The notes under the pieces are model-generated. The model was not told where the DNA came from. It saw only the letters and a program-made list of their open reading frames with translations, and did not search any database. From Kocuria marina (GTDB lineage Bacteria > Actinomycetota > Actinomycetes > Actinomycetales > Micrococcaceae), in assembly GCA_014652975.1 (NCBI GenBank), contig BMZV01000004.1:62001-126000 (forward strand): 64,000 bases of DNA, in the 5' to 3' direction. The position numbers and the translations under genes were made by a program. Position 1 is the first letter of the stretch. Each line of letters begins with the position of its first letter. This document shows, one piece after another, positions 4,365 through 61,941 of this stretch.

Positions 4365-4410
4365 ACGACGCCGCGGTGCCTCTCCCGTGGGAGGGGCACC
4401 GCGGCGTCGT
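4365..4410 (-). terminator. Strong hairpin terminator after ilvC
   Basis: The arms acgacgccgcggtgcc and ggcaccgcggcgtcgt are perfectly complementary, and the pairing extends inwards to about 22 bp with one G-U pair and a tiny loop. It lies between the ilvC stop and the metG start, so it should end the ilvBNC transcript. The outer arms carry the word gcggcgtcgtcg (complete at 4401-4412), which recurs through the window. Confidence 0.85.
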
Positions 4411-4412
4411 CG
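4401..4412 (+). repeat. Copy of the 12-bp word GCGGCGTCGTCG (intergenic)
   Basis: This exact copy forms the right arm of the ilvC terminator. The left arm holds the first ten bases of the complementary word, acgacgccgc, so the hairpin is built from two facing copies. Confidence 0.8.
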
Positions 4413-4458
4413 TCAGTTATGTCACGCCCTGTCGGCGAGGAAGCAACGGAAGGAGGGA

Positions 4459-5484
4459 TCAGCGAGCGGCGGTGCCCTCGGTGTAGTCCTCGTCCGTCTG
4501 CTCCCACGCGAACAGCGAGCGCAGCTGGCGGCCCGTTGTCTCGATGGGGTGCTTCTCCTCCTTGGCGCGCAACTCCTTGAACTCGCTGCCGCCGGCGGCC
4601 TGGTCCTTCATGAAGCGGTCCGCGAAGACGCCCTCCTGGATGTCCTTGAGAACGTCCTGCATGCGCTCCTTGACGGAGGGGTCGATCACGCGCGGGCCGG
4701 AGACGTAGTCGCCGTACTCGGCGGTGTCGGAGATGGACCAGCGCTGCTTGGCGATGCCGCCCTCGACCATGAGGTCCACGATGAGCTTGAGCTCGTGCAG
4801 CACCTCGAAGTATGCGATCTCCGGCTGGTAGCCGGCCTCGGTCAGCGTCTCGAAGCCGTACTGGACCAGGTGGGACATGCCGCCGCACAGCACGGCCTGC
4901 TCACCGAACAGGTCCGACTCGGTCTCCTCGGTGAAGGTGGTCTCGATGACGCCGGCGCGCGTGCCACCGATGCCCTTGGCGTAGGACAGCGCGAGCTGCA
5001 GCGCCTGACCGGACGCGTCCACCTCGACGGCCACGAGGTCCGGGACACCGCGCCCGGCCTCGAACTCGCGGCGCACGGTGTGGCCCGGGCCCTTGGGGGC
5101 GACCATGGCCACGTCCACGCCCTCGGGGGCCGTGATGTAACCGAAACGGATGTTGAAGCCGTGCGCGAAGAAGATCGCGTCACCCTCGTCCAAGTTGTCC
5201 TTGATGGACTCCTCGAACACCTGCGCCTGGACCTGGTCCGGGGTCAGGATCATGATGACGTCCGCTTCCTTGGCGGCCTCGGCCACGGTCAGCACGCGCA
5301 GGCCCTGGGCCTCCGCCTTGGCGCGGGACTTGGAGTTCTCGGACAGGCCGATGCGGACGTCCACGCCCGAGTCACGCAGGTTCAGCGCGTGGGCATGGCC
5401 CTGTGAGCCGTAGCCGATGATGGCCACGGAGCGGTTCTGGATGATCGACAGGTCGGCGTCGTCGTTGTAGTAGATCTTTGCCAT
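4459..5484 (-). CDS. ilvC: Ketol-acid reductoisomerase (class I)
   Basis: The enzyme isomerises and reduces acetolactate or acetohydroxybutyrate to the dihydroxy acids, using NADPH and Mg2+. At 341 residues it is the short class I form. The N-terminal Rossmann domain has [19 protein letters not shown]. The all-helical C-terminal domain carries the conserved acidic stretch [28 protein letters not shown] that binds the two Mg2+ ions and substrate. The start is ATG ([12 protein letters not shown]). It follows ilvN by 98 bp and is followed by a strong terminator, making it the last gene of the ilvBNC unit. Confidence 0.98.
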
Positions 5485-5582
5485 GGGCTTGTTCTATCTC
5501 CTTCGAATAGCGGATGGGCATTGCACGTCGGGGCGCAACGGCACGGGCGTTGCGCGAGATGCGGTGTCCTGCGGCCGAGCGG

Positions 5583-59816: not shown

Positions 59817-60785
59817 GTGACGGCTCACAGCTGGCGCGTTCTCGGGGCCACGGGGTTCATCGGTTCCGCCATCACCACTGCCCTGCAGACCCGGAACATC
59901 CCGGTCACCCCGGTGGCCACCCCCCGACTGGCCTCGCCCGCGACCACGGTGCACCACCTCATTGAGCACGCGCACCGCCTCGAGTCCGTGATCGACTACC
60001 TGGCCGATTCCTTCGCCGGCGCGGACGTGGTGGTCAACGCCGCCGGTCTGGCCGCCCCCGATCAGACGCACCAGCAGTCCCTGACCGGGGCTAACGCGCT
60101 GCTTCCCGTCCTCGTGGCGCTCGCCGCCCACCGCACGGGCGTGCGCCGGGTGATCCACATGAGTTCCGCGTCCGTGCAGGCCGACGCACCCGTGCTGGAC
60201 GAGTCCATCCGCACCGCACCGTTCTCCCCCTACTCCTTCTCCAAGGCCCTGGGCGAGTCCGCGCTCTACCGGTTGCGCTCCCAATGGCGCGAGGAATCCG
60301 GCGCTCCGCAGTTGAGCGTCATCCGCGCGACGTCCGTGATGGGCAGCGGGCGGCGCACCACGCGCATGCTCGCACGGTTCGCGTCCTCGCCCCTGAGCTC
60401 GGTCGCCGGGGACGGCTCCGCCCCCACCCCCGTGACCTCCGTGACCGCCCTCGCGCAGTTCACGGTGGCCGTGGGCGAGTTCCCTGAGGTCCTGCCCCCC
60501 GTGATCCTGCAACCGTGGGAGGGCGCCACGACCGGTTCCGTGCTGCGCGACGCCGGACGCCGCCACCCCCTGCAGCTGCCGTCCTGGGTGTGCCGGGCGG
60601 TGATCGCGACCGCGCGCACGGCCTCGGCCGCTGCCGGTTACCGCTACGGCGGGCTCATCCGCCGCCTGGAGGTCACGTGGTTCGGTCAGCGCCAGGTCCC
60701 CGGGTGGGCCCACGAGAACGGTGTGCTCCCCGAGCCCCACGTGCAGGAGGTGCTGCGCCAGGCGCACCTCGCGCTGGGTCGCTGA
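59817..60785 (+). CDS. NAD-dependent epimerase/dehydratase family protein
   Basis: The 322-residue extended short-chain dehydrogenase has the NAD motif VLGATGFIGSAI near residue 8 and the catalytic segment with SSASVQ and YSFSKALGES (Tyr-x3-Lys). It probably modifies a nucleotide sugar or a surface-glycan precursor, in keeping with the divergent glycosyltransferases. GTG 59817 is selected because aggaggagac lies ten bases upstream; the long open frame before it has no similarity. It is a single-gene unit. Confidence 0.86.
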   Translation: MTAHSWRVLGATGFIGSAITTALQTRNIPVTPVATPRLASPATTVHHLIEHAHRLESVIDYLADSFAGADVVVNAAGLAAPDQTHQQSLTGANALLPVLVALAAHRTGVRRVIHMSSASVQADAPVLDESIRTAPFSPYSFSKALGESALYRLRSQWREESGAPQLSVIRATSVMGSGRRTTRMLARFASSPLSSVAGDGSAPTPVTSVTALAQFTVAVGEFPEVLPPVILQPWEGATTGSVLRDAGRRHPLQLPSWVCRAVIATARTASAAAGYRYGGLIRRLEVTWFGQRQVPGWAHENGVLPEPHVQEVLRQAHLALGR

Positions 60786-60848
60786 GCCGCGCGTTGGGTT
60801 CTTCGCAGCGCGGCCGCGCCCGGTCCGGAGCACTCCCGCGCTGACAGA

Positions 60849-60892
60849 ACGATCCCCGCACCGTACCCGTCATGGGATGGTGCGGGGATCGT
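60849..60892. terminator. Bidirectional terminator between the epimerase and sua5
   Basis: acgatccccgcacc and ggtgcggggatcgt form a perfect 14-bp stem with a 16-base loop, in the 127-bp gap between convergent genes. Confidence 0.8.
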
Positions 60893-60912
60893 CTCGTCAA
60901 GGCACCTGTTGT

Positions 60913-61941
60913 TCAGGCCCCGTGGTTCTCGGGTTCCCCGGCGACGAGCCGCTGCGCCTCCTCCATGCTCAGTGCCCCGGTCCCGTCCCAGCGCGGCTCG
61001 GTGTCCGGTGTGCGTTCCCGTCCCTGGTCCACGAACGGACGGGCCTCCGCGGGGGAACTTCGGACCAGGTCGGCCACGAGGTCCTCGTCCGCGGGAGTCG
61101 AGCCGGCCGAGAGGGCCACGCCCTCGCCGAACGATTCCGGTGCATTCGCTTCGGGGTTCTGACGCGCGGAGTGTGTCGACGCCGCGGCGTCGTCGTCCGA
61201 GACCGCCGCGCCGGCACCGCCGGCTGCAGCGGCCGCCTCCGGGCTCTCACCGGTCGCCGGAGCTGCCGGTTCGGTGCCGCCGTCCACGTTCGGGACGACC
61301 TCGCGCAGCCGCGCCAGCGTGATCGCGCCGTGGCGCAGCACCACGGGCGTCTCCCCCGTGCAGTCCACGATGGTCGAGGCCACGTCCTGCGCACCGGCGG
61401 GGACCTCACCCGCGGGCCGCGGACCGTCGTCGAGGTAGAGCGCCACGCGGTCCTGCAGCATCTCGCGGGCCTGCTCGGCGGTGCGCGCGGCGGGCATCCC
61501 CGTCCGGTTGGCGGAGGACACGGCCATGGGACCCACGCGTTCGAGGACCGCGCGGGTCACGGCGTCGTCGGGGACGCGTAGTGCCACTGTCCCATGGGTC
61601 TCCCCCAGGTCCCAGCCCAGGGTGGGCTGGGCCCAGCAGATGATCGTGAGGGCGCCGGGCCAGAACGCCTGCGCGAGCGCGCGGGCGTCGTCGGAGATCT
61701 GGTCCGCGAGGCCGTCGATCACCTCGGGGCGGGCGATCAGCACGGGCGGGGGCATTTCCCGCGTGCGGCCCTTGGCGCCCAGCAGTCCCTGGACACCGGG
61801 CGCCGAGAACGCATCGCAGCCGATGCCGTAGACGGTGTCCGTGGGCAGCACGAGGCATTCGCCGTCCGCGACGACGCCCGCGGCCTCGGTCACGGCCGCT
61901 TCGAGTTCCTGCGGGGTCCCGCAGGATCGGATCTCACTCAC
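60913..61941 (-). CDS. Threonylcarbamoyl-AMP synthase (Sua5/YwlC), with long tail
   Basis: The enzyme makes threonylcarbamoyl-AMP for the t6A modification of tRNAs reading ANN codons. The YrdC core fills residues 1-205, with LVLPTDTVYGIGCDAF, LLGAKGRTREMPPPVLIA, the ALTIICWAQ stretch and VSSANRTGMPAA. About 125 residues follow that are not part of the core: an Ala/Gly/Pro/Asp-rich, probably disordered stretch, then a short acidic region ending SMEEAQRLVAGEPENHGA. This is not the globular Sua5 domain of archaeal enzymes. GTG 61941 with aggag six bases upstream is the start. prmC lies upstream on the same strand. Confidence 0.93.
   Translation of the reverse strand: MSEIRSCGTPQELEAAVTEAAGVVADGECLVLPTDTVYGIGCDAFSAPGVQGLLGAKGRTREMPPPVLIARPEVIDGLADQISDDARALAQAFWPGALTIICWAQPTLGWDLGETHGTVALRVPDDAVTRAVLERVGPMAVSSANRTGMPAARTAEQAREMLQDRVALYLDDGPRPAGEVPAGAQDVASTIVDCTGETPVVLRHGAITLARLREVVPNVDGGTEPAAPATGESPEAAAAAGGAGAAVSDDDAAASTHSARQNPEANAPESFGEGVALSAGSTPADEDLVADLVRSSPAEARPFVDQGRERTPDTEPRWDGTGALSMEEAQRLVAGEPENHGA
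61184..61195 (+). repeat. Copy of the 12-bp word GCGGCGTCGTCG (inside sua5)
   Basis: It is on the non-coding strand and is read as Asp-Asp-Asp-Ala-Ala-Ala-Ser in the disordered C-terminal extension. Further nine-base relatives occur in this gene near 61564, 61688 and 61871. Confidence 0.7.

Follow-up and report, generated by a model that had tools for sequence, protein, structure and literature searches.

DNA uptake words have so far been reported only from two Gram-negative families, in which they are known as DUS and USS. In the passages of PMC3630211 that concern it, the DUS of the Neisseriaceae is a short over-represented word that occupies spacers and tolerated coding places, forms inverted pairs, comes in dialects and has a distribution matching the phylogeny. 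The over-representation of both USS and DUS declines with mismatch load, as passages of PMC1939737 describe. Transformation of Micrococcus luteus relies on comEC together with Flp/Tad pili, and this organism possesses comEA and comEC as a pair as well as two tad clusters (passages of PMC4322843); the text on M. luteus in that source gives no match for 'uptake sequence' or 'sequence-specific'. Here we analysed a 12-bp word of Kocuria marina, GCGGCGTCGTCG, which, by analogy to DUS and USS, probably serves one Kocuria clade as a DNA uptake word and would lie outside the two families known for such words. Titles and abstract openings of the literature on KOPS and on uptake words and transformation in Micrococcus, Kocuria, Actinobacteria and Gram-positives, together with passages of PMC4322843, PMC13388538, PMC6370729, PMC3630211, PMC12616744 and PMC1939737, contained no report of the word. 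Within the literature covered, the 12-mer itself appears in one paper, on the puckered gene.

Copies of the word in the window

The window, i.e. the whole 64-kb stretch of DNA that was analysed, contains 14 exact copies of GCGGCGTCGTCG, each at the first base given in a preliminary description of this DNA and, as stated there, ten on the plus and four on the minus strand. That description had also judged the word to be very rare by chance, and dinucleotide shuffles of the window indeed expect 0.22 copies (at most 2 in 100 shuffles) and an order-3 Markov model 0.10, versus the 14 observed. When up to one mismatch was allowed, 28 matches were obtained against 4.94 expected. The seven one-mismatch relatives named previously fared less uniformly: four are real (5453, 12646, 15308 and 61559) and a match at 57207 may be the one placed near 57150, but none exists near 2687 and the nearest real one to that at 54630 lies at 54211.

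Gene calling assigned seven of the 14 copies to spacers (4401, 9656, 16694, 18611, 24947, 26898 and 43680), where five had been counted before; two of the seven hinge on uncertain gene limits. The copy at 4401..4412 (plus strand), in the metG-ilvC spacer, forms an arm of a terminator-like hairpin with inverted word arms downstream of ilvC (4362..4418, minus strand; -45.2 kcal/mol, z -9.75), and the exact word is present in the one orthologous spacer compared. By eye, word-like inverted arms were also recognized at the ilvC hairpin in K. marina, K. salsicia, K. tytonicola and K. carniphila, and a single arm in K. tytonis; K. polaris and an uncultured Kocuria have a hairpin there that is unrelated. 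A second hairpin with inverted word arms (18570..18626, plus strand; -38.7 kcal/mol, z -4.61) lies between convergent genes and includes the copy at 18611..18622 (plus), which recurs in the orthologous spacer of four of eight relatives. The claim that two spacer copies build hairpin arms therefore held, and three other spacer copies that were folded formed none (z 0.16, -0.39 and 1.77). Orthologous spacers also carry the word for the copies at 16694..16705 (plus; two of eight relatives) and 43680..43691 (plus; five of eight), and the single spacer compared for 9656..9667 (minus) does not. The copy at 24947..24958 (minus) is in a probable spacer adjoining a weakly scored gene and has counterparts in two of six relatives. 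That at 26898..26909 (plus) is either in a spacer or at the beginning of the following gene, since an alternative, longer ORF (26847-28055) includes it, and the word occurs in none of seven orthologous spacers.

Of the coding frames proposed for the genic copies, AASS (three copies) and xDDAA (four) were recovered; no exact copy in the window is read as Pro-Thr-Thr-Pro, a reading that two relatives have at an orthologous site where the own genome has one mismatch to the word. The three sense copies, all AASS, are located at 22201..22212 (minus), 27627..27638 (plus) and 33246..33257 (minus). The first is exact in one of the aligned relatives (G010) and the second in three (G010, G018 and G012). 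At 33246, all 12 bases are retained in six of nine clade relatives, with one mismatch in two and three in one, and the site has 8 and 9 mismatches in the two aligned outgroup congeners. Among conserved AASS windows, 28 of 35 pairs with the word and 24 of 39 pairs without it show identity; since these pairs are non-independent and the sites few, we do not rely on gene-site conservation beyond site 33246. The antisense copies, all on the plus strand, are at 29951..29962 (GDDAA), 42077..42088 (NDDAA; exact in one relative, G010), 54182..54193 (HDDAA) and 61184..61195 (DDDAA); at the last two sites no relative aligned. The copy at 29951 is exact in both aligned outgroup congeners too and hence probably represents protein-driven background.

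Abundance of the word across the genome

Genome-wide, GCGGCGTCGTCG occurs 398 times (187 forward, 211 reverse; 143 per Mb), against 0 and 3 copies of the control word obtained by reversal. Many other actinobacterial genomes hold tens of copies, and one holds 258. In a sample of 1,457,631 bases (52% of the genome), 192 copies were found against 11.3 expected under an order-5 Markov null. Called spacers make up 14.8% of the sampled bases yet contain 59 of these copies, as compared with 0.44 expected at order 3 and 1.0 at order 4. The remaining 133 are genic, versus 28.6 after synonymous-codon shuffling. This genic excess is seen in all six frames and is equal on both gene strands (about 53 sense and 52 antisense); sense copies number 55 against 2.4 under the codon null, and the commonest frame, antisense frame 2, has 72 (null 24.8). 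The prominence of that frame and the occurrence of the word in other actinobacteria would suit an origin as a side effect of codon usage in GC-rich DNA and of trinucleotide repeats (GAC-GAC-GCC, Asp-Asp-Ala). We regard this as extremely improbable as the main cause, because the nulls leave the spacer and sense-strand excesses standing and because one-mismatch words are rarer than GCGGCGTCGTCG, with at most 16 copies each in spacers and, for one such word, 30 versus 398 genome-wide.

Over-representation drops as mismatch load grows (135x, 9.6x, 3.0x and 1.35x). The copies are spread roughly evenly (variance/mean 1.14 in 69 stretches of 20 kb), and their number climbs with GC (Spearman 0.31). 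At the 3' side, the word is preferentially extended by T or G and then C, and a weakly purine-rich stretch lies upstream. A longer repeat or a mobile repeat of MITE/REP type was rejected, as, beyond the two 3' bases and the weak upstream purine bias, the sequence on either side of the 59 spacer copies stays close to background.

An inverted partner was found nearby for 25 of the 59 spacer copies, whereas two control strings gave 1 and 4 of 59. Both neighbouring genes were called for 54 spacer copies, of which 17 are situated between convergent genes. These pairs, together with the hairpins at 4401 and 18611, would be expected if the word were a preferred stem of intrinsic terminators. Such a role is very unlikely, however, given that the exact word is present in just 8 of 167 strong spacer hairpins, whose spacers contain 57 copies, and given the 133 genic copies with their sense excess.

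KOPS, AIMS and Chi are strand-polar. The preliminary description had considered a segregation or recombination signal of KOPS or Chi type. The FtsK gamma domain encoded in the genome and the plausible word length speak for such a polar signal, serving FtsK or recombination. The strands are mixed, however, both genome-wide and on the sampled replication arm, where 28 plus and 35 minus copies gave no polarity (p 0.45; sampled stretches of contig C1, 1-920 kb, treated as one replichore before dnaA at 924 kb). A polar role was therefore dropped as hardly credible.

Distribution among Kocuria and candidate uptake machinery

The Kocuria genomes split into 12 with 241-606 copies and 15 with 3-115, a split that a one-mismatch control word does not reproduce. 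The distribution agrees with phylogeny, relatedness being taken from the identity of one protein and not from a tree. The word was present in 14 of 39 spacers orthologous to those containing it in the window versus 2 of 165 other spacers; by hand count, 10 of 34 remained when the nearest relative, G010, was left aside. Locally, the contrast may vanish: orthologous stretches of 28-40 kb contain 2-6 copies in word-rich relatives other than G010, two outgroup stretches have one copy each in 20 and 14 kb, and the 20 kb around ilvC has none in K. salsicia, K. tytonis and K. carniphila. In Micrococcus, a related genus of the same family, ilvC loci of about 21 kb hold 0, 0, 0 and 1 copies in four records and 2 in a MAG.

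No scattered spacer word stood out as a dialect in 7 of the 15 low-count congeners, in samples of 60-100 kb with marginal power; in 100 kb sub-sampled from the own genome, its own word has three spacer copies. In G004 the top words belong to a CRISPR-like array, and in some other low-count congeners short repeated stretches rank first. In the sample of G001, the 10-mer GGCGTCGTCG is frequent (27 versus 2.0 expected). TCGGCGTCGTCG, tried as a dialect word of that genome, is not special, with 53 copies there and a genus range of 6-64.

Taken together, the order-5 Markov model, synonymous-codon shuffling, spacer enrichment, shared spacer positions and clade restriction bear out the earlier proposal that the word is favoured as DNA, on both strands and independently of frame and transcription. 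HIP1 is a palindromic cyanobacterial octamer whose persistence has been discussed in terms of DNA modification or of a bias in repair. A similar bias could maintain a dispersed, non-polar and clade-specific word without any role in uptake; we consider this improbable for a non-palindromic word of 12-14 bases concentrated in spacers and inverted pairs, and no modification enzyme recognizing a site of this kind is known to us. Binding by a chromosome protein, another suggestion of the preliminary description, is possible. A protein of the nucleoid, of segregation or of repair that is specific to the clade and needs many non-polar sites would account for the roughly even spread, the crisp word, its clade restriction and the shared spacer positions. 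Sampled counts on C1 also rise slightly towards dnaA; by hand count, the 12 stretches below 460 kb contain 27 copies and the 11 at 480-900 kb contain 36. This explanation nevertheless appears rather unlikely, as inverted spacer pairs and a six-frame genic excess are the published pattern of uptake words and, to our knowledge, no protein has sites of twelve bases that number about 400 and extend into codons.

Among the roles suggested beforehand, DNA uptake fits best. A competence surface receptor, either a Tad/Flp pilus subunit or ComEA, would bind the word, uptake and recombination would favour kin DNA carrying it over foreign DNA, and the resulting bias would let the word build up where it is tolerated, in spacers, terminator arms and some codons. 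We infer that these Kocuria are transformable with word-biased uptake, and likewise infer which protein may read the word, ComEA and TadE-like subunits being the candidates. The machinery sought consisted of ComEA, ComEC and Tad-type genes other than tadV. ComEC and ComEA are each present in 26 of 27 congeners, the own genome included, and there are two Tad-type pilus loci. Word-poor congeners possess all three kinds of gene as well, and the word is thus not followed by any receptor gene; TadA, a further protein encoded at its Tad-type locus (L241:8037-8621) and ComEA were rejected as clade markers on account of their homologues there. An element splits one tadA gene in the word-rich G005, G006 and G025, and this gene of the word-rich G015 matches in two pieces on different contigs; that pilus may therefore be off in these four. 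Titles and abstract openings of the literature gave nothing on tadA inserts.

Mobile DNA, here a plasmid-like contig (38,015 bases) and three homologous tadA elements of about 13 kb, is devoid of the word (P 0.004 for the contig; 0 versus 6.7 expected for the elements, with P 0.001 if these were independent, which they are not). Such absence would suit any slowly accumulating chromosomal word. Several other observations also weigh against an uptake word. The uptake words of Haemophilus and Neisseria are denser than 143 per Mb, genic copies are partly due to codon usage (28.6 of 133), and the small samples from seven other congeners yielded no comparable dialect word. Competence genes do not follow the word, the local copy contrast can vanish, copy number tracks GC and one tadA is broken in some word-rich genomes. 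In addition, the competence system of K. rhizophila 301 is called incomplete or highly divergent by its authors in a passage of PMC13388538.

On balance, we lean slightly towards a third, independently evolved self-recognition of DNA for transformation, in Gram-positive actinobacteria, that arose once in one Kocuria clade and uses a Tad/Flp-pilus or ComEA receptor and not a type IV minor pilin (ComP). If so, uptake-word systems would have had a third origin, in Actinomycetota and with other machinery; the word would be a candidate for limiting gene transfer among Gram-positives, and its sharp boundary within one genus would provide a test bed.

Comparison with known systems

Like the DUS of the Neisseriaceae, the Kocuria word is over-represented, lies in spacers and tolerated coding places, forms inverted pairs and has a distribution matching phylogeny. 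It differs in sequence, phylum, Tad/Flp-type pili and its density, which is lower than that of DUS, and in that no ComP-like receptor was identified and no dialects were found in the Kocuria samples. With the USS of the Pasteurellaceae, it shares mismatch-graded over-representation and a flanking preference. The words themselves are unrelated, and USS flanks are AT-rich tracts whereas the upstream flank in Kocuria is weakly purine-rich. KOPS/AIMS and Chi are likewise short over-represented chromosomal words, but the Kocuria word is non-polar on the sampled arm. Unlike HIP1, GCGGCGTCGTCG is not self-complementary. As in M. luteus, in which Flp pili serve transformation, Kocuria possesses ComEA, ComEC and two Tad-type loci.

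Abundance and coding context of the word

All 14 exact copies of the 12-bp word claimed in the preliminary description were recovered at their coordinates in the window, where dinucleotide shuffles expect 0.22. The genome comprises 2,786,137 bases on 21 contigs (the window lies at C4:62001-126000), and, judged by IlvC, K. marina SO9-6 (100%) is the nearest named record among the 80 best relatives out of 569. Genome-wide, the word occurs 398 times, 187 times forward and 211 times reverse; reversed-pattern controls gave 0 and 3. The sample analysed, 70 stretches and the window (1,457,631 bases, 52% of the genome), held 192 copies against 11.3 expected from an order-5 Markov model, and only poly-C tracts and one parS-like palindrome ranked above the word when 12-mers were ordered by z-score. 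Counted over both strands, the sample contains the palindrome, GTTTCACGTGAAAC, 10 times, corresponding to about five sites; it also contains some poly-C tracts of at least 12 bases. Within the window, copies are farthest apart at 43692-54181, a stretch free of the exact word across the ATP synthase operon (genes named by reading).

The intergenic enrichment suspected earlier was borne out: 59 of the 192 copies fell in called spacers, which make up 14.8% of bases (binomial p 2e-8), as delimited by a custom gene caller (1277 genes, 85% of the sample) whose starts and short genes are uncertain, so that some 'spacers' contain missed genes. Markov models of orders 2, 3 and 4 predicted 0.27, 0.44-0.46 and 1.0 spacer copies, and the ratio of observed to expected decayed from 135 for the exact word to 9.6, 3.0 and 1.35 with one, two and three mismatches. 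Selection on the word within genes, as proposed, also withstood codon shuffling, with 133 genic copies compared with 28.6 (sd 4.1; maximum 38 in 40 within-gene synonymous shuffles); a second codon null gave 22.1. Against the synonymous shuffles, 55 sense copies were found where 2.4 were expected and 78 antisense copies where 26.3 were expected, and in each of the six reading frames the count exceeded that frame's own null. The two strands of genes show a similar excess, which favours selection at the DNA level over selection on RNA or protein.

Flanks, pairing and chromosomal spread

On the 3' side, spacer copies were followed by T (34/59) or G (18/59) and then by C (39/59), and on the 5' side a weak purine-rich tract spanned roughly -12 to -5. 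Farther out the flanks were near background, which rules out the word as a piece of a longer repeat. Counting as partner any copy with at most two mismatches no more than 80 bases away, 25 of the 59 spacer copies had an inverted and 8 a direct partner (two control strings, 1 and 4); among the 133 genic copies the numbers were 33 and 24 (controls, 8 and 9).

Of five window spacer copies that were folded, two lay within strong hairpins and three outside; the hairpin 3' of ilvC (window 4362-4418) reached -45.2 kcal/mol. By eye, the same spacer in K. marina contains two exact copies, word-like arms occur in the ilvC-downstream hairpins of K. salsicia, K. tytonicola and K. carniphila, K. tytonis has one such arm in the spacer, and K. 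polaris and an uncultured Kocuria have a hairpin unrelated to the word. Of 167 strong spacer hairpins, no more than 8 coincide with an exact copy, which disfavours the word as the generic terminator stem.

Counts per 20 kb were approximately Poisson (variance/mean 1.14, 69 stretches) and rose somewhat with GC (Spearman 0.31, p 0.009). The gene dnaA lies at C1:924 kb; in the sampled parts of the region to one side of it, C1 1-920 kb, taken as one replichore, 28 plus and 35 minus copies were counted, giving no replication polarity.

Distribution and conservation among Kocuria genomes

The 27 Kocuria genomes, including our own, fell into two groups: in 12 the word occurs 241-606 times (78-216 per Mb), in the other 15 it occurs 3-115 times (1-38 per Mb). 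This split appears to match relatedness as judged by the identity of one protein, the orthologue of window 32904-33479 being 74-96% identical in the 11 word-rich relatives and at most 63% in the other 15. The one-mismatch control TCGGCGTCGTCG occurred 30 times in our genome, 10-36 times in the clade and 6-64 times in other congeners. A word-poor congener of 57% GC with three copies (G004, L081-L085) carries a CRISPR-like array whose repeat, containing CTCCCCGCGCCT, was found 21 times. Across an order-wide sample of 119 genomes, including our own, the next highest counts were 258 (G061), 175 (G078) and at most 163 in the remainder; G061, of another family and 3.8 Mb in size, tops the other non-Kocuria genomes.

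The expected conservation between relatives was seen in spacers: in nine clade relatives the word was present in 14 of 39 orthologues of word-bearing spacers versus 2 of 165 for word-less ones, and in 10 of 34 by hand count when the nearest relative, G010, was left out. Positions common to relatives may reflect common descent. Within genes, site 33246 kept all 12 bases in six of the nine relatives; two others show a single mismatch and the ninth shows three. At most of the remaining genic sites the relatives differ strongly from one another. Because site 29951 also matches exactly in the two outgroup congeners aligned (G003, G016), it is probably protein-driven background. Orthologous stretches of word-rich relatives except G010 held just 2-6 copies per 28-40 kb; the window is therefore richer than its counterparts.

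Competence genes, mobile DNA and a candidate uptake function

The genome encodes ComEA (HHH_3, SLBB) and an adjoining ComEC (Competence, metallo-beta-lactamase) at C2:292.7-296.4 kb. Each of the two proteins was found in 26 of 27 congeners, the genome without a match, G019, being 76% complete. Tad-type genes form two loci, C1:427-433 kb and C4:168-173 kb. Each encodes an ATPase with a T2SSE match; TadE was matched in one of them and DUF4244 in the other, and the remaining Tad labels were assigned by gene order. As far as the cited part of PMC4322843 describes it, loss of comEC abolishes transformation in M. luteus, whose apparatus includes Flp pili. The competence system of K. rhizophila 301 is judged by the authors of PMC13388538 to be either incomplete or strongly diverged.

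Contig C8 of our genome (38,015 bases; L008, L246) held no copies (P 0.004). Its GC is 62.6-64.5%, and K. rhizophila plasmid CP124835 covers 46% of its first 20 kb at 77% identity. No copies were found on the small contigs C10, C11 and C12, and five on C9. In three word-rich genomes, an element of about 13 kb splits tadA of the second Tad-type locus (G006 C1:993332-1008292, L242; G025 C11:407319-421917, L243; G005 C12:3674-18115, L244); tadA of G003 carries a different insert (C1:1475935-1487393, L245). The element's recombinase, scanned in G006, has Resolvase and Recombinase domains (serine-type), and by eye the genes in G005 and G025 resemble those of G006. Matches to the two flanking tadA ends overlap at about residues 46-97, which suggests that insertion left a duplicated target. 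The three elements contain no copies versus 6.7 expected at host densities, about one observation rather than three since they are homologous. Prophages occupy comK in Listeria. The repeated elements in tadA, likely a competence-pilus gene, recall these insertions.

By analogy, we consider the word a reasonably likely candidate for a DNA uptake word; that it is instead the binding site of another chromosome protein seems doubtful. The cited portion of PMC12616744 gives uptake word systems as known from Neisseriaceae and Pasteurellaceae only. As those families' uptake words, DUS and USS, are portrayed in the sections drawn on (PMC3630211, PMC1939737), the Kocuria word resembles them in its frame and strand independence, spacer preference and inverted pairs, and likewise in its graded mismatch decay, clade boundary and absence from the mobile DNA examined.
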